Below the pieces are notes generated by a model. The model made no database searches and was not told the origin of the DNA. It saw only the letters and a list, made by a program, of their open reading frames with translations. The translations under genes and the position numbers were made by a program. A stretch of 64,000 nucleotides of DNA, from assembly GCA_947165045.1 (NCBI GenBank), contig CAMUYW010000004.1:16395-80394 (forward strand), written 5' to 3'. The number at the start of each line of letters is the position of its first letter. Position 1 is the first letter of the stretch. Of this stretch, positions 17,217-61,606 are shown piece by piece. Source of the stretch: an uncultured Fibrobacter sp. Lineage in GTDB: Bacteria > Fibrobacterota > Fibrobacteria > Fibrobacterales > Fibrobacteraceae.

Positions 17217-17738
17217 TCAGAAGAAATCCTTAGAAAAAGACGGAAGCGTTTTTGCAATAAAATGCAGATTTAAAGCTTTGACTAAAGCATCATCCTGAAA
17301 TTCTTCGTCGAGACGTGATAGCACGCTTATGCCTTCTTGTAGACGGTCTTCATTGAACAAGACAAACCCCTTGTTATGAAAAGATGCGATAAGGGCGTGG
17401 AGGTTGCTATATGTGCCTTTGAACTTTTTTAGAATGCTTTTTAATTGTTGACGAACAGAACCGTCCACATTGAACTTCATTTCTCCAAGCAGCGCTTTAC
17501 CATTGTCCAAGACGAATGCGAAATCCATCGAACAAGGCTGTTGCCTGGGGAAACATGCTATTGCCAAAGCATCCCCATTTACGACAGGTGCGTCTTGTGG
17601 TGTAAAGGCGAAATCAGCATCTCCAAGATTTTTATCAGGATTGTTTTCTTTTTCAGCCAACGAATAGAAATCTGTACGGGCTTGCGGGGCGCATCGCATT
17701 ACAAGATTTGTTGAATTGGTTTTATCGTATTTAGGCAT
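17217..17738 (-). CDS. Putative PD-(D/E)XK-like nuclease partner of the adjacent ATPase
   Basis: CSMDFAFVLDNGKALLGEMKFNVDG resembles D-x(n)-E-x-K core; start overlaps ATPase stop. Weak motif-only call. Confidence 0.45.
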   Translation of the reverse strand: MPKYDKTNSTNLVMRCAPQARTDFYSLAEKENNPDKNLGDADFAFTPQDAPVVNGDALAIACFPRQQPCSMDFAFVLDNGKALLGEMKFNVDGSVRQQLKSILKKFKGTYSNLHALIASFHNKGFVLFNEDRLQEGISVLSRLDEEFQDDALVKALNLHFIAKTLPSFSKDFF

Positions 17739-19065
17739 CCCCGTCCTCATCATCTATTCCGGAATAGATGTCTATCTTTTCAAGCGATTTGTTGAACATT
17801 TTGAATATTGGGGAAATGTTCAAATCATATTTTTTGAATCGATATAGATAAGAATCAGGCGTACTGCTTTCTGCAAGATAAAAACAGACTTTGTCTTGAA
17901 CGTCCTCTCCAAACTCGTATTCGGATACGTGCTTGATAGCCCGGATGAAGTCTGGACTATGGCTTGCTATGAGAAATTTGACTCCAATGATTTTATGAAG
18001 TCTAATTACAAGTCTCGCGTATTCAACCACCCATTGAGGATGGAGGTGGGCTTCGGGTTCGTCGAGAATCAACAAACTTTTTCCGTCCAGTACACCTGCT
18101 GTATAGAGCATTTGCAATATGGAAAAAGATTTTAATCCGGTTGCGCACTCTAGCAGGTTAAATGATTTGCCATCTGGACGGTGGTAGACGAACTGTTCGT
18201 AATTGTCCTTCTTTTCCCAGCTGGAATTTCCACTGAGCAAGCCCAAGTTTGCCCCGCCAGTAAAGTCGAAGCCGGAAATAGATTTTTTTCTTTTTAGGGA
18301 ATTATTCAAAAAATTCCAATGAGCTCGGTATGATTGATTTTCGCCGAGAGCCATTGGAGAATCTATGTAGAATATGTTTTTGACTGTATTCGGAATAGCG
18401 ACGTTGTCGTCTTCGGTATTTAAAATAGGGACGGAATCTTCGTAGACGTTAAACAGTTCTGGATTAATCCCGTTACCTTCGCCAAAGGAATTTTTCCAGA
18501 ATTCCTGAAATAAACCGGCTTTGCGGTCTGCTTTTGCTCGAATTGCATCGCGTTCTATTTGATTCAAATAGTTTTCTATTTCTATTGCAATTTGAGGTAA
18601 TTCCAAAGAATTTGCATTATTCCCAATGATAGACTCGAATATTTTGCGGAATCTTGTGATTTTATTTTGTTCTTTTGCAGGAGGGCTTATATAACCGATG
18701 GATTCAAGGACTTGCTTGAGAATTTTTATAGCTGTGTGGAGTCTTTCTAGGTCGGAGCTTTCTGTGCCAATGAAATAAGGGTATAGCTCTTTAGTCAATT
18801 TTGTCAATGTAGATCTGTCAATTAACCCAGTCAGGTTGTTGCTTGCGATAAACAGAGCTTGTGCCAAAGGATAAATATACTTGGTCCAGGTATTATTGTT
18901 GACAATATCTTCGTAACGGATGGCTGAAGAAAGGAGATTATATGTTTGATTGGCAATGGTGCTTTTGCCGGAACCGTTTATGCCGGATAATACCGAAATC
19001 CCGTCTAGTTTTATTTCAGCTGATTCTACTGCGCGAAAATGATTGATTTTTACCAAAAGACTCAT
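17731..19065 (-). CDS. AAA-family (AAA_21/RecF-like) ATPase
   Basis: Walker A GINGSGKSTIANQ, Walker B SLLILDEPEAHLHPQW, FLIASHSPDFIRAI. Confidence 0.85.
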   Translation of the reverse strand: MSLLVKINHFRAVESAEIKLDGISVLSGINGSGKSTIANQTYNLLSSAIRYEDIVNNNTWTKYIYPLAQALFIASNNLTGLIDRSTLTKLTKELYPYFIGTESSDLERLHTAIKILKQVLESIGYISPPAKEQNKITRFRKIFESIIGNNANSLELPQIAIEIENYLNQIERDAIRAKADRKAGLFQEFWKNSFGEGNGINPELFNVYEDSVPILNTEDDNVAIPNTVKNIFYIDSPMALGENQSYRAHWNFLNNSLKRKKSISGFDFTGGANLGLLSGNSSWEKKDNYEQFVYHRPDGKSFNLLECATGLKSFSILQMLYTAGVLDGKSLLILDEPEAHLHPQWVVEYARLVIRLHKIIGVKFLIASHSPDFIRAIKHVSEYEFGEDVQDKVCFYLAESSTPDSYLYRFKKYDLNISPIFKMFNKSLEKIDIYSGIDDEDGDA

Positions 19066-19333: not shown

Positions 19334-20323
19334 TTATTTTTCCGCGTGGTCGTTCGTTATATCTTCCATGAAAACAACATTCTCGCCCCATCCTTTTCCA
19401 AACATCGAAGGCGAATGTGTTGCTATAATGAGCTGGCAATTTGGATTCATTTGACAAATGACATCTATTAATATTTGCTGCCAACTGATATGCAGAGATA
19501 TTTCAGGTTCGTCCATCAGGACAATCCATTTTTTCTTTTCTTGCAAAAATACCTGAAGTAAAATATAAAGTAACTGTTTTTCTCCAGATGATAGTTGGTC
19601 TATATCTATTTCACCACCATATTCTGTTTTGAAAAAAAGCCGTGCAGGATTAGAAGATACATCTATTTTTTTCTTTGTTTCTTGGAAAAATTTATTGACG
19701 CATTCGAAGAAATCATCAATATTCTTAAGAATAGATTCTGCGTTTTTTTTGTCGTCCAATGCTCTTAATCTGTAGTTGAAAAAAGAAGGGGCTTTGGAAT
19801 TTTGGTTTATGACAAATTCCAATTGTTTTGACAGAAAACTTTCGTTTTTCTTTTGATTTTCTCCGTTAATGAGATCGCACAAACGATTCAGGAATGTTGT
19901 TTTTCCAGATCCGTTGTTGCCAACTAAAATATTGACTGTCTTTAAATTATTCCAAGAAATTTTTTTACCGTTCCACAAATCGCACGATACGATGGATGAA
20001 ATGAATTCCTTGGGTCTCAAATCGGAATCATCTATTTTCCAATATTCTCTAAAGTAAGCTTCGGAATAATCTTTGTACTTGATTTTGCCCTCTTTTGCAT
20101 CATCAAATTTTTTCCGGACTTTTTCAATAGCTTTTTGGGGCCACTTCAATTCTATGAGGTATTTTGACATATCTTCGTCAAAAACCTCTCCAAAAGAATA
20201 CAAGGCCTTTACAGCTTCTTTAACTCGATTTTCGTCAAGAGGATGTGCGAAACCAGTCTCTGGGAAAGACGTCTGCGTAAGCCAGTCAAAAGCCTTCATT
20301 GTTACTTTAGAAATGTTATTCAT
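19334..20323 (-). CDS. AAA-family (ABC/RecF-like) ATPase
   Basis: Walker A VGNNGSGKTTFLNR, QLSSGEKQLLYILL signature, Walker B WIVLMDEPEISLH, LIIATHSPSMF. Confidence 0.85.
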   Translation of the reverse strand: MNNISKVTMKAFDWLTQTSFPETGFAHPLDENRVKEAVKALYSFGEVFDEDMSKYLIELKWPQKAIEKVRKKFDDAKEGKIKYKDYSEAYFREYWKIDDSDLRPKEFISSIVSCDLWNGKKISWNNLKTVNILVGNNGSGKTTFLNRLCDLINGENQKKNESFLSKQLEFVINQNSKAPSFFNYRLRALDDKKNAESILKNIDDFFECVNKFFQETKKKIDVSSNPARLFFKTEYGGEIDIDQLSSGEKQLLYILLQVFLQEKKKWIVLMDEPEISLHISWQQILIDVICQMNPNCQLIIATHSPSMFGKGWGENVVFMEDITNDHAEK

Positions 20324-40733: not shown

Positions 40734-41501
40734 TCACTCCATACAAATTGAACAAAATTTTTTTCCAAATTCTGTTATAGCGTAAATACTCTTTTTTTCA
40801 ACAATAGATTGCCCAGCGCTCAATTTTATTTTTGGATAATTTGGATGTTTTTTCAAATTTTCATAGATTGAATCGTTCGTAAAGGCACGATCTTTTTCAA
40901 TATCAACCAGTCCTAACCTTTGCAAATTATCAAGATATTCAGGAAATTTTTCAGGATATGCACAATTTACTTTGTAACATAAATCACCAAAATAAGGAAC
41001 AACATCATATTCCCCATCATTGTCTATTTTTAATCTTGGTTTTATTATTGGAAGCAATTTTTCGGCAAAAAGTTCTCTTAACATTTTACATTCGTCAGAG
41101 CTCAATTGTTTTATGATTTCAACAAACGCAGGATGCTCATCTACAACATCAGAATTCATCGAAGCTCCTAAAAGATTCGTGAACATGTCTCTCAATTCAG
41201 TTTTATGAGAATTGTATGTCAGCGCTACGACTGTCGGCACCGCAATGCTTGGGTCAGGACTTTTTATTTTCTCGGAAGGAACTTTCTTTCTTGCAAAATA
41301 TTCAGGAATAGCGACATCTAGATACGATGCTATTTTATCAAAGCCCCAAACCATAGCAGATATCGGAGACAACGCCATTCTCGTCGCACCCTGCAATGCT
41401 TTACCCACCTCAGACAATGCGGGATGCGCTACATCCTCATAAATTGCTTTAACGGGAACTTGTTTTCCAATTTCACCACCCAAAGATTCTTTTACATCCA
41501 T
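40734..41501 (-). CDS. Abi-alpha / DUF4393-like protein
   Basis: 255 aa; ALQGATRMALSPISAMVWGFDKIASYLD...LRDMFTNLLGASMN...VHPAFVEIIKQLSSDECKML layout of DUF4393. Confidence 0.7.
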   Translation of the reverse strand: MDVKESLGGEIGKQVPVKAIYEDVAHPALSEVGKALQGATRMALSPISAMVWGFDKIASYLDVAIPEYFARKKVPSEKIKSPDPSIAVPTVVALTYNSHKTELRDMFTNLLGASMNSDVVDEHPAFVEIIKQLSSDECKMLRELFAEKLLPIIKPRLKIDNDGEYDVVPYFGDLCYKVNCAYPEKFPEYLDNLQRLGLVDIEKDRAFTNDSIYENLKKHPNYPKIKLSAGQSIVEKKSIYAITEFGKKFCSICME

Positions 41502-42719: not shown

Positions 42720-42908
42720 TAATCAGTGGGCTTGTTTTGGCTGGAAATCGAAGATTTTTCAGAAAAATCTTCTGACATCAATAACCCGTTCGGTTTGCTG
42801 AAAGCACTTATGGAAAAGAAACTGAAGGACTACTGGTTTGAAACGGGAACACCGACGTTTTTGGTGGAGCAGATTCGCAACTACGACTATATAGGAGTAA
42901 CAACATAA
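42720..42908 (+). pseudogene. Fragment of AAA-ATPase-like (PF09820/DUF1703-type) gene
   Basis: NNPFGLLKALMEKKLKDYWFETGTPTFLVEQIRNYDY resembles the NPFSvlnal...YWFeTGTPTFLvelL core. Confidence 0.6.
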
Positions 42909-43660
42909 GTAAAGTCTTGTGCTGAACCAAATAAATGATCGAAGCCACTAGAAAGCAGAACTTCTACATCTCCTGTAGGAGAATTTATTTTCATATAACG
43001 ATCATGATAATCGTTTGTAGCGTCTACCTGTTGAAAAGCGCAATGAACTTTGGGATAATTTTTTGAATTAGACTTCCACCACGCACCGATATCTGCATGT
43101 TGTTTGGCATACAAATCTGGAGCCAATGGCAGAAGAATTGTCAATTCAACATTTTCTGCGCTTTTTAATAAATCAAAAAAATTTGATATTATTCCAGAGG
43201 AAAAATTCTTACTATCACATAAATACTTGTCATAGACAATAACATGATTAGCGCTTGAACACATCGCTTTTAAATGTTCAACACATTTAGATCTAGGCTT
43301 ATTCTTAAATGTTCCTGAAAAAGTCAATTTTAAGGAATCGCAACCATCAATATTGACATACGGATAAGCGTATGTCGATTTAGCATCCGTCAAAATCAAT
43401 TTAAGTTTTGTCTTCTTTGCGAGATCTCGTTCATTAAGCCCATTGAATCCAGCCGCCTGCAATTGAGCCTCCATTGCAGTATCCATTTGTGCATTAATTC
43501 TATCGTATTGGTCTTTATTTGTTTGATGAGGCTTGTAATGAGACAAAAGTTGTTCTAACTTCTTTTTCTCATTCAGATTAAGTCTATTTCCATTTTTAAA
43601 ATCTAAATACAATTTTAACAGGCTATCGCAGAGTACAATTTCACTCAATGCCATTTTCAC
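42887..43660 (-). CDS. Third gene of DUF262/DUF3696 operon; possible PLD-like HDR-motif protein
   Basis: 257 aa; HDRYMKINSPTGDVEVLLSSGFDHL resembles an H-x-(K/R)...GS/SG motif; ATGA overlap with ATPase gene. Confidence 0.6.
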   Translation of the reverse strand: MKMALSEIVLCDSLLKLYLDFKNGNRLNLNEKKKLEQLLSHYKPHQTNKDQYDRINAQMDTAMEAQLQAAGFNGLNERDLAKKTKLKLILTDAKSTYAYPYVNIDGCDSLKLTFSGTFKNKPRSKCVEHLKAMCSSANHVIVYDKYLCDSKNFSSGIISNFFDLLKSAENVELTILLPLAPDLYAKQHADIGAWWKSNSKNYPKVHCAFQQVDATNDYHDRYMKINSPTGDVEVLLSSGFDHLFGSAQDFTYVVTPI

Positions 43661-44661
43661 CCCATATCAATTAATTGTCTTAGCGTGGCATCAAAAAATC
43701 CTGTGGGAAAATCGCATCTTTTTCCGTTTTTTTCATAGTGACCATCTTCTGATATATTCATTTTTTCAAATGGTGTTCTGCAATCACTTTTGTAGAATAA
43801 TTTCACATCGCTTGATTCGATATTTCCTGAATACACTTCGTATCGAATACGATTAATCAAATGTTCGCAATGAGTTTCTATGATTACCTGTATGCCAGCG
43901 GAAGCCACAAAAGAAAGAAATTCGCCCATCTTAGATTGAGCCGCCGGATGCAAATGAATCTCAGGATTTTCTATGATAACAACTTGTCCAGGTTCGGCTC
44001 GCAAGCACGTTATTATAATTTCTGCAGCGTAACTTAAGCCCGCGCCGAGTTGTGTAGGCAAAACATCTTCCAACACATCATAGTTAAACGTAACACCCAG
44101 AATCTTTGGATCAGAAGATTTTTCTACCTTTAATTCAACATTCTTCCCGAAAAAGTATTGAAGCCAATAATCAACATTTTGGGATAAAGTTTTGGATTCT
44201 GACCTTACGAGTTTTTCTGCGATAGTATCAGATTTATGTTTGTATAGATAACTCAATACGAAATCAGCCCTATCTCCAATATCATCAAGATCAGAATGTT
44301 TTGCACTATCTTCAGGGCCAATTCTTGTTTCGCTTAAATAAAAGAGATTCTCGCCTTTTTTTATTGAACTTGGTGGAACATCCGTGCCGAAAGAAAACAT
44401 TTTCGGTTCGAACTTACAAACAACTCCATTAATACTAATAAACAATTCTTTTGCATTCAGATATCTATTTTTTATAACATCAAAAGAATAATATGTTAAG
44501 GGAACATTTCCGCTATTTGCTGCGGCTATATACAACAAAATTGCTTGTATTACAGATGATTTTCCTGCGGAATTTACACCTGTAATAATATTCAGATTTC
44601 CGAAATCAAAGGATTCTTCGTCAATACACTTGAAATTTTTTAATACCAAACTATTTATCAT
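43657..44661 (-). CDS. RecF-like AAA ATPase, DUF3696-type
   Basis: FGNLNIITGVNSAGKSSVIQAILLY Walker A; VVIIENPEIHLHPAAQSKMGEFL Walker B; VIIETHCEHLINRIR. Confidence 0.85.
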   Translation of the reverse strand: MINSLVLKNFKCIDEESFDFGNLNIITGVNSAGKSSVIQAILLYIAAANSGNVPLTYYSFDVIKNRYLNAKELFISINGVVCKFEPKMFSFGTDVPPSSIKKGENLFYLSETRIGPEDSAKHSDLDDIGDRADFVLSYLYKHKSDTIAEKLVRSESKTLSQNVDYWLQYFFGKNVELKVEKSSDPKILGVTFNYDVLEDVLPTQLGAGLSYAAEIIITCLRAEPGQVVIIENPEIHLHPAAQSKMGEFLSFVASAGIQVIIETHCEHLINRIRYEVYSGNIESSDVKLFYKSDCRTPFEKMNISEDGHYEKNGKRCDFPTGFFDATLRQLIDMG

Positions 44662-45758
44662 ATATTCAAAGCCTTCTGCAAATCAATAATCTGTTCAAAA
44701 CGACTTTTCACCTTTGTTGAACTATCAACTTGCTTTGAAAAATCAGAATTTAGAAAAACATCTTTTTGTTCGTTCAATCGCTTTGATATTTCCTCTTTCT
44801 TTTGTTCTATCGCTTCGGAATCCTTAGCAAAAAAATACATCAACACTTCAAATAAAGCCATGTTTATAGGAAGCCTTTTTTCATCAGTACCTTTGGAAAA
44901 CCTGAACGCATCAGCACCTAAAGTCATATAGCAATTCTTCATACTACAACAGAAAATTTCTTTCAATTTTTGTACAGTGCCATCATCAAGTTCGTTAATG
45001 ACATCCATTGATTTCGCTAAAAAATCATCTATATCGCTTCGATACTCGTAGTCTTCGAAACCTGCCCATTTATGGAAATACATATAAAATGACAAAGAAC
45101 GAAGAATTATATAACGGTCCTTCATTCTTTTCTGCTTAATAGATCCACCGGTGGCGGTCTGAAATTCCGTCGATTCAGCAAGTTCTTTTAGTAACAAGGT
45201 TGATTTGCCTTGATGAAGAGCATTTCTCATTTCTTGATGGTTCAGCACAGTTCCGCTTCTATTCACTCTATCAAAAATGTCGAATTTTATTTTTTCAAGG
45301 GTGGGAGGCTGAATCATATACACGTATGTTTGATAATCTTCAATTTTCCCTTGCAAAATAGGAGATAAATCTGAAAATTTTTTTCCATTTTCAGAAGATA
45401 ATATTTTTAGGTCCTTCAAAGCAAATTCATTATTCATGAACCGAAAAACCGAAGTCAATCTTTGTCGTCCATCAACAACCTGCTGTTTTCCGTCATTTTG
45501 TTCGAAAAAATAAAACGGTGGTAAGGGAATTCCCATTAAAATAGATTCAATCAGTTCGCATTGTTGTTTTAATGGCCAAACAAATTCGCGCTGAAATTCT
45601 GGGTCCAAAATGATATCCCTTCTGATCGGATCATCCGCTTTACGTTTCAATTGAAAGAGCGTAAACTGATCCCTGCTAATTTTCACCTTTGCATTGGGAT
45701 AAACGGAAGGAGAACCTTCACCTTCATCAACTTCGAGCGTTTCGTCGTTTTGCGTCAT
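44658..45758 (-). CDS. DUF262-domain protein (GmrSD/ParB-like)
   Basis: PEFQREFVWPLKQQCELIESILMGIPLPPFYFFEQNDGKQQVVDGRQRLTSVFRF. Confidence 0.9.
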   Translation of the reverse strand: MTQNDETLEVDEGEGSPSVYPNAKVKISRDQFTLFQLKRKADDPIRRDIILDPEFQREFVWPLKQQCELIESILMGIPLPPFYFFEQNDGKQQVVDGRQRLTSVFRFMNNEFALKDLKILSSENGKKFSDLSPILQGKIEDYQTYVYMIQPPTLEKIKFDIFDRVNRSGTVLNHQEMRNALHQGKSTLLLKELAESTEFQTATGGSIKQKRMKDRYIILRSLSFYMYFHKWAGFEDYEYRSDIDDFLAKSMDVINELDDGTVQKLKEIFCCSMKNCYMTLGADAFRFSKGTDEKRLPINMALFEVLMYFFAKDSEAIEQKKEEISKRLNEQKDVFLNSDFSKQVDSSTKVKSRFEQIIDLQKALNI

Positions 45759-60772: not shown

Positions 60773-61606
60773 ATGAGCGACTTTTATAAAGAAGTTATTG
60801 CTATCGTAGAACGGAAATCTACGGAGCTATCGCGTTTTACTTATAGTACGTATATGGGACACATCCGAAAATTGCGGATTTTCAGACCAAAGTTGGACTG
60901 TCAAGATATAGACCAAAATTTTGTAAGCGGGTATATCGAATTTATGCATTCACGTGGGAATAGCCCTGGCACCATTCATCGCTCGTTATCGATATTAAAA
61001 ATGTTTCTTGCGGAGCTTGTCAAAAACTGCAGAATACCCTTTAATCCCATGCAAAACCAGGTGTTGCGTAGGTATCGCTCACGTCGGGAATTTTTGGAAA
61101 TCTCCGAACTAGAAAGCCTTTACCAAAATTTTTGGCGGTATTTTGATGCGGTAACGGTAAGCGAACGTGAAGCGCTGCGGGCGTTTCTTTTTTCGTGTTT
61201 TACGGGATTGCGATATTCAGACCTTAAGGGGCTAAAAACTCGTGATATGCTAAATGGAAAAATTAGGCTTTGTACGCAAAAGACAAATACGCTTGTGTAT
61301 ATTCCTGTGCCGGCTCCGGCGTTGCGGCTTGTGAATGGTGCGAATGATTTGGCGTTGCATGTGGTGAACAACTCGACTTTTAACAAAAATTTGCGTTCGG
61401 GGGCGAAAAAGCTAGGTTGTCACCGTCACTTGCATGCGCATCTTGCGCGGCATACTTTTGCGACATCGTGTATTTCGTTTGGAATTCCGCTTGAGGTGGT
61501 TTCAAAACTGCTCGGCCATGCAAACTTGCAGACCACATTGATTTACGCGAGGTATTCTAATAGTGTTATAGACCGCGAAATGCAAAAATTTAAAATCAAC
61601 GCATGA
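60773..61606 (+). CDS. Tyrosine recombinase (XerC/D-like integrase)
   Basis: FTGLRYSDLKGLK, LHAHLARHTFATSCISFGIPLEVVSKLLGHANLQTTLIYARYS (R-H-x-x-R...H...Y). Confidence 0.93.
   Translation: MSDFYKEVIAIVERKSTELSRFTYSTYMGHIRKLRIFRPKLDCQDIDQNFVSGYIEFMHSRGNSPGTIHRSLSILKMFLAELVKNCRIPFNPMQNQVLRRYRSRREFLEISELESLYQNFWRYFDAVTVSEREALRAFLFSCFTGLRYSDLKGLKTRDMLNGKIRLCTQKTNTLVYIPVPAPALRLVNGANDLALHVVNNSTFNKNLRSGAKKLGCHRHLHAHLARHTFATSCISFGIPLEVVSKLLGHANLQTTLIYARYSNSVIDREMQKFKINA

Follow-up and report, generated by a model that had tools for sequence, protein, structure and literature searches.

Menshen, which was reportedly discovered by Millman et al. in 2022, is encoded by the genes named nsnA, nsnB and nsnC in PADLOC and DefenseFinder. 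Menshen has been described as a DUF262 gene residing beside a predicted OLD-type protein, without DUF1524, and phage resistance is lost on mutation or deletion of the DUF262 gene (PMC10952713). In the same review, an OLD TOPRIM nuclease domain is reported for one Menshen component (PMC10952713). The window analyzed here, a 64,000-nucleotide stretch of DNA from an uncultured Fibrobacter sp., contains three intact, overlapping open reading frames on the minus strand at positions 42887-45758, all of them present as originally predicted:

44658..45758, minus strand: NsnA gene (366 amino acids, ATG start)
43657..44661, minus strand: NsnB gene (334 amino acids, ATG start)
42887..43660, minus strand: NsnC gene, putative effector (257 amino acids, GTG start at 43660 or ATG start at 43654)

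Each of the three proteins matched a PADLOC model of the corresponding Menshen component: NsnA near full length (2e-110), NsnB across residues 1-330 (2.3e-85) and NsnC across residues 7-256 (model PDLC03880, 2.5e-52), with residues 11-138 of NsnC also matching PDLC03907, a separate 141-residue NsnC model. The genes are adjacent in the order A-B-C by which Menshen is recognized and, as all three frames match profile families (E <= 2.5e-52) and the gene order recurs in distant phyla, the open reading frames are not a chance reading. Pfam searches yielded no TOPRIM match in any of the three proteins; as the trio matches the PADLOC models near full length, this absence was treated as not defining. 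The locus is almost certainly a complete, intact-looking Menshen operon (NsnA, NsnB, NsnC), and it is a further copy of an already named system rather than a new one. The original prediction that the trio is a defence-type operon, combining a sensor/NTPase of the DUF262 kind and an ATPase with a putative effector, is supported; its claim that this was not a named trio is overturned by the PADLOC assignment of all three genes to Menshen, an outcome that had been set beforehand as counting against it. An unnamed system distinct from Menshen is extremely improbable and was rejected on this profile assignment: the NsnC type does differ in sequence from the NsnC of other NsnB clades, but PADLOC names all three genes, this NsnC type is already modeled as PDLC03880, and the gene order and partners are the same as in Menshen.

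Both junctions had been read as ATGA overlaps. This holds for the first (44658/44661, NsnA/NsnB), whereas the second (43657/43660, NsnB/NsnC) is a GTGA overlap, as the overlapping NsnC start is GTG. An alternative in-frame ATG for NsnC resides two codons on, at 43654, and would leave a 2-nt gap after NsnB. In related PLD-type loci, those whose NsnC carries the PLD-like domain described below, NsnA and NsnB invariably overlap, by 4-32 nt, and the NsnB/NsnC junction ranges from a 4-nt overlap to a 5-nt gap. A promoter and terminator scan yielded sites no more numerous than in shuffles. The motifs quoted in the original prediction (VVDGRQRLTSVF, GVNSAGKSS, IIENPEIHLHP and HDRYMKI...LLSSGFDHL) were all found. 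Relics had been noted nearby, and one homologous locus (L020) has its NsnA split into two frames, both of which could suggest that the trio is a decaying, non-functional relic; this is highly unlikely, however, with all three window open reading frames at full length and the family-invariant motifs intact.

Several other genes in the window were observed around the trio. The Abi-alpha-like neighbor was confirmed as an Abi-alpha homologue at 40734-41501 on the minus strand (Pfam PF14337, 1.6e-50; PADLOC candidate PDC-S47, 5e-52), separate from the trio and with an opposite-strand open reading frame in between. Two adjoining OLD/AAA_15-type ATPase genes at 17731-19065 and 19334-20323, both on the minus strand, are candidates for another defence locus. 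A tyrosine recombinase gene is present about 15 kb from the trio (60773-61606, plus strand; PF00589, 9e-18).

The trio proved to be conserved as a unit, as had been predicted. A search of GTDB genomes with an NsnB profile brought up 25 loci, spread over at least eight phyla, and in these neighborhoods a DUF262 gene homologous to NsnA was immediately upstream of NsnB in 25/25, with a full third gene (~240-300 amino acids) directly after NsnB in 21/25; the remaining loci (L027, L029, L032 and L034) have a third frame that is split or short or that runs off the contig end. Complete trios are also carried by Campylobacter plasmids. Restriction-modification genes reside near three homologous trios, and in Moritella a type I restriction-modification operon encloses the trio, with HsdM/HsdS on one side and an HsdR-like gene on the other (L018:134-10139). 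Full-length NsnC was found in 3/168 genomes of the phylum and trio DNA in 2/80 genomes of the genus, a patchy distribution as expected of accessory defence genes.

A maximum-likelihood tree was built from 27 NsnB proteins, and its long branches leave the finer placement unsure. A branch with support 100/100 separates all eight rows with a PLD-type NsnC from those with other NsnC types, so that effector type goes with the ATPase lineage in this sample of 27. The PLD type is a catalogued one, as it is covered by PDLC03880, and the remaining types match different PADLOC models of NsnC with one streptococcal exception (L038), whose third protein had no PADLOC match and may represent an NsnC type not yet catalogued. 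NsnC-like proteins that are shortened at the N-terminus and stand alone, with no NsnA or NsnB nearby, were also observed on Campylobacter plasmids (L003:4872-5456 and L052:2504-3088, both plus strand), and one C. jejuni plasmid carries a lone NsnC-like gene together with a full trio; these lone genes could be either relics or genes with an independent role.

NsnA is a DUF262/GmrSD_N protein (ParB/Srx-type NTPase fold) with GmrSD_N as its sole Pfam domain (1.8e-25), and its nearest solved sequence is BrxU (7p9k). The predicted NTP-binding site is marked by the following motif, in which the D, G, Q and R of DGxQR are invariant across an alignment of 14 NsnA proteins:

45459..45473, minus strand: DGRQR motif of NsnA, residues 96-100, predicted NTP-binding site

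Two further forms of NsnA were observed among the homologues. In an alphaproteobacterial trio, NsnA lies in two overlapping frames (L020:3890-5001, plus strand), either by frameshift or as a two-subunit form, and in the streptococcal trios (L037:2758-7008 and L038:2751-6959) NsnA has ~745 amino acids.

The GmrSD_N core, the proximity to BrxU and the restriction-modification genes near three of the homologous trios would be consistent with type IV restriction of the GmrSD/BrxU kind, in which NsnA would recognize modified phage DNA and NsnC would cut the phage DNA directly, without cell death. We consider this mode of action unlikely, as the trio contains no DUF1524 nuclease and every locus found also encodes the ATPase NsnB, whereas GmrSD has no such ATPase. 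Pfam searches yielded no match to the DUF1524 His-Me nuclease domain in any trio protein, and on this basis the identity of a GmrSD-type restriction enzyme was rejected.

NsnB is an OLD/PtuA/AriA-like ABC-type ATPase (Pfam AAA_15, 2.2e-21) whose relatives are annotated as AAA family or DUF3696. Its nearest solved relatives by profile include OLD, PtuA and AriA, and it matches AriA profiles in the PADLOC search (4.5e-23) as well as AriA structures. In addition, its AF2 model (pLDDT 88) matches the ATPase folds of SMC, Rad50 and PtuA at E about 1e-10. Two Walker motifs were located in NsnB:

44554..44580, minus strand: Walker A motif GVNSAGKSS of NsnB, residues 28-36
43945..43983, minus strand: Walker B region VVIIENPEIHLHP of NsnB, residues 227-239, containing Asn232

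Asn232, within ENPE, is invariant in 27/27 NsnB proteins. As the corresponding Walker B sequences are EEPE in OLD, DEVD in PtuA and DEPE in AriA, the second acidic residue has been replaced by Asn throughout NsnB.

For the third protein, the window NsnC, Pfam yielded no significant match and a direct sequence search against the PDB no useful one, and two weak matches of gene 3 were rejected, one to a hAT-dimerisation domain (E 0.035, below the curated cut-off) and one to a phage internal virion protein (phrog_3155, E 0.0077). An AlphaFold (AF2) model generated from 8 sequences (mean pLDDT 82, pTM 0.70) and a Foldseek search with it point to the following predicted layout:

43301..43660, minus strand: mostly helical N-terminal region of NsnC, residues 1-120, from AF2 secondary structure
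42893..43291, minus strand: predicted C-terminal PLD-like domain of NsnC, residues 124-256, from Foldseek
42998..43006, minus strand: HDR, residues 219-221, the first three residues of the invariant HDRY, where the first hairpin strand begins
42944..42952, minus strand: SSG, residues 237-239, at the end of the second hairpin strand

The best Foldseek match in the PDB was the PLD-like domain of MITD1 (2e-5, prob 1.00), and the top matches were members of the PLD superfamily (MITD1, the polyphosphate kinase PPK1, NgoAVII R-protein, Tdp1, SauUSI, Zucchini and phospholipase D), with modest TM-scores of 0.36 by query and up to 0.56 by target. In the model, strands 221-227 and 230-236 form a hairpin with HDRY opening the first strand and SSG following the second. 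This is the layout of the HKD hairpin of PLD enzymes, with SSG in the place of their G/S motif. The window NsnC shares 38-41% identity with its two nearest relatives, and across the eight PLD-type NsnC proteins the invariant residues include R123, D144, H219, D220, R221, Y222, E233, S238 and G239. The predicted fold and the invariant HDRY...E...SG thus support the proposal of a PLD-like third protein, and NsnC probably ends in a PLD-like effector domain, with its N-terminal region as the proposed docking part. Unrelated proteins elsewhere in the phylum end in weak relatives with the same motif, and the PLD-like domain therefore looks like a widely used module. Such HDR-type C-termini reside at L010:1387-2301 (minus strand), L006:520-2106 (plus strand) and L007:1360-2755 (minus strand), and their carriers include an ORF6N-domain protein and a 528-residue protein whose reading frame is broken in two in another genome.

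Catalysis by NsnC is plausible only, as each chain carries a single motif, with HxR in place of HxK; a two-motif active site would need a dimer. HxR(x4)N/D/E was found in 8/8 NsnC proteins, and the HxK(x4)D motif of HKD enzymes in none of them. We give an active PLD-like nuclease an even chance. The PLD-like domain of MITD1 is generally regarded as non-catalytic, and the trio could also be a Menshen system in which the corresponding domain of NsnC is non-enzymatic and, as in MITD1, serves to bind a lipid, nucleotide or nucleic acid ligand, with the toxic step elsewhere, for example in membrane damage or in NTP depletion by NsnA. This alternative draws on MITD1 MIT_C as the best fold match, on the Pfam match of the L020 homologue, which is to MIT_C (6e-4 on its own), and on the replacement of the HxK lysine by Arg in all eight proteins. 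However, the catalytic-type His and the hairpin S/G are invariant despite identities of 21-40% among the homologues, and other fold matches (Tdp1, NgoAVII R-protein, SauUSI, PPK1) are to enzymes that act on phosphodiesters or phosphoanhydrides, so we regard a non-enzymatic NsnC as the less probable case, if a somewhat better candidate than type IV restriction.

As PtuAB and AriAB both pair an OLD-like ATPase with a nuclease, and NsnB resembles PtuA and AriA, the best-supported model in our analysis, and the most likely, has NsnA as sensor, NsnB as ATPase scaffold and NsnC as effector. For any activity of the window copy, we infer a course in which the nucleotide-binding DUF262 protein NsnA would detect an infection cue in the form of a nucleotide or DNA state that a phage has altered, NsnB would dimerise on ATP to act as scaffold and gate, and NsnC would be held in the complex via its helical N-terminal region and then be released or activated. 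Dimerisation of the PLD-like domain would complete the active site, and NsnC could then cleave a phosphodiester in a nucleic acid substrate, such that either the phage or the cell would be stopped. Taken as a whole, with this sensor, scaffold and nuclease-effector explanation included, the assignment of the trio to the Menshen type whose NsnC has a C-terminal PLD-like domain is quite probable. A more specific proposal, that NsnB is an ATP-binding clamp with slow or no hydrolysis and NsnC a non-canonical, single-HxR PLD-like enzyme completed only on NsnAB assembly, making PLD-type Menshen a mechanistically separate lineage, is speculative and rather doubtful; the Asn at the Walker B catalytic position is common to all NsnB proteins compared, not to the PLD type alone.

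As a discovery the locus is modest, adding a Menshen operon of divergent sequence, found in a Fibrobacteraceae genome. NsnC type follows NsnB lineage in the sample, with a PLD-like effector fold predicted for the window type, and the invariant residues of DGxQR, ENPE and HDRY/SG are direct targets for mechanistic tests of a system about whose mechanism the literature covered says little.

Compared with known systems, the trio is like Menshen in having all three components, their order and overlap, and no DUF1524; it differs in that its NsnC is of the PLD-like type, with other NsnC types seen elsewhere, and in its divergent sequence, with NsnC at 38-41% identity to its nearest relatives. NsnA also matches PD-T4-2_A (1.4e-32), but far more weakly than the NsnA model, and NsnB and NsnC had no PD-T4-2 match among the matches listed. 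A DUF262 domain with the DGxQR motif is shared with GmrSD, BrxU and SspE, whereas the trio has no DUF1524 nuclease domain and encodes its ATPase and effector as separate genes. With the PtuAB proteins of Septu and retron Ec78 the trio shares a PtuA-type ATPase fold in NsnB and the pairing of an ATPase with a separate effector protein; in contrast, the trio effector is PLD-like rather than HNH, a DUF262 gene is added and there is no reverse transcriptase. The HNH partner PtuB of Septu is absent, the third gene being NsnC, with no HNH match in Pfam or PADLOC. PARIS AriAB is alike in the AriA profiles and structures that NsnB matches, and unlike in that the trio has a DUF262 partner and no AriB TOPRIM effector. 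Finally, NsnC resembles members of the PLD superfamily (MITD1 MIT_C, Tdp1, NgoAVII R-protein and SauUSI) in the predicted fold of residues ~124-256 and in a hairpin with an invariant His, and differs from them in HxR for HxK, a single motif per chain and an identity of 7-14%.
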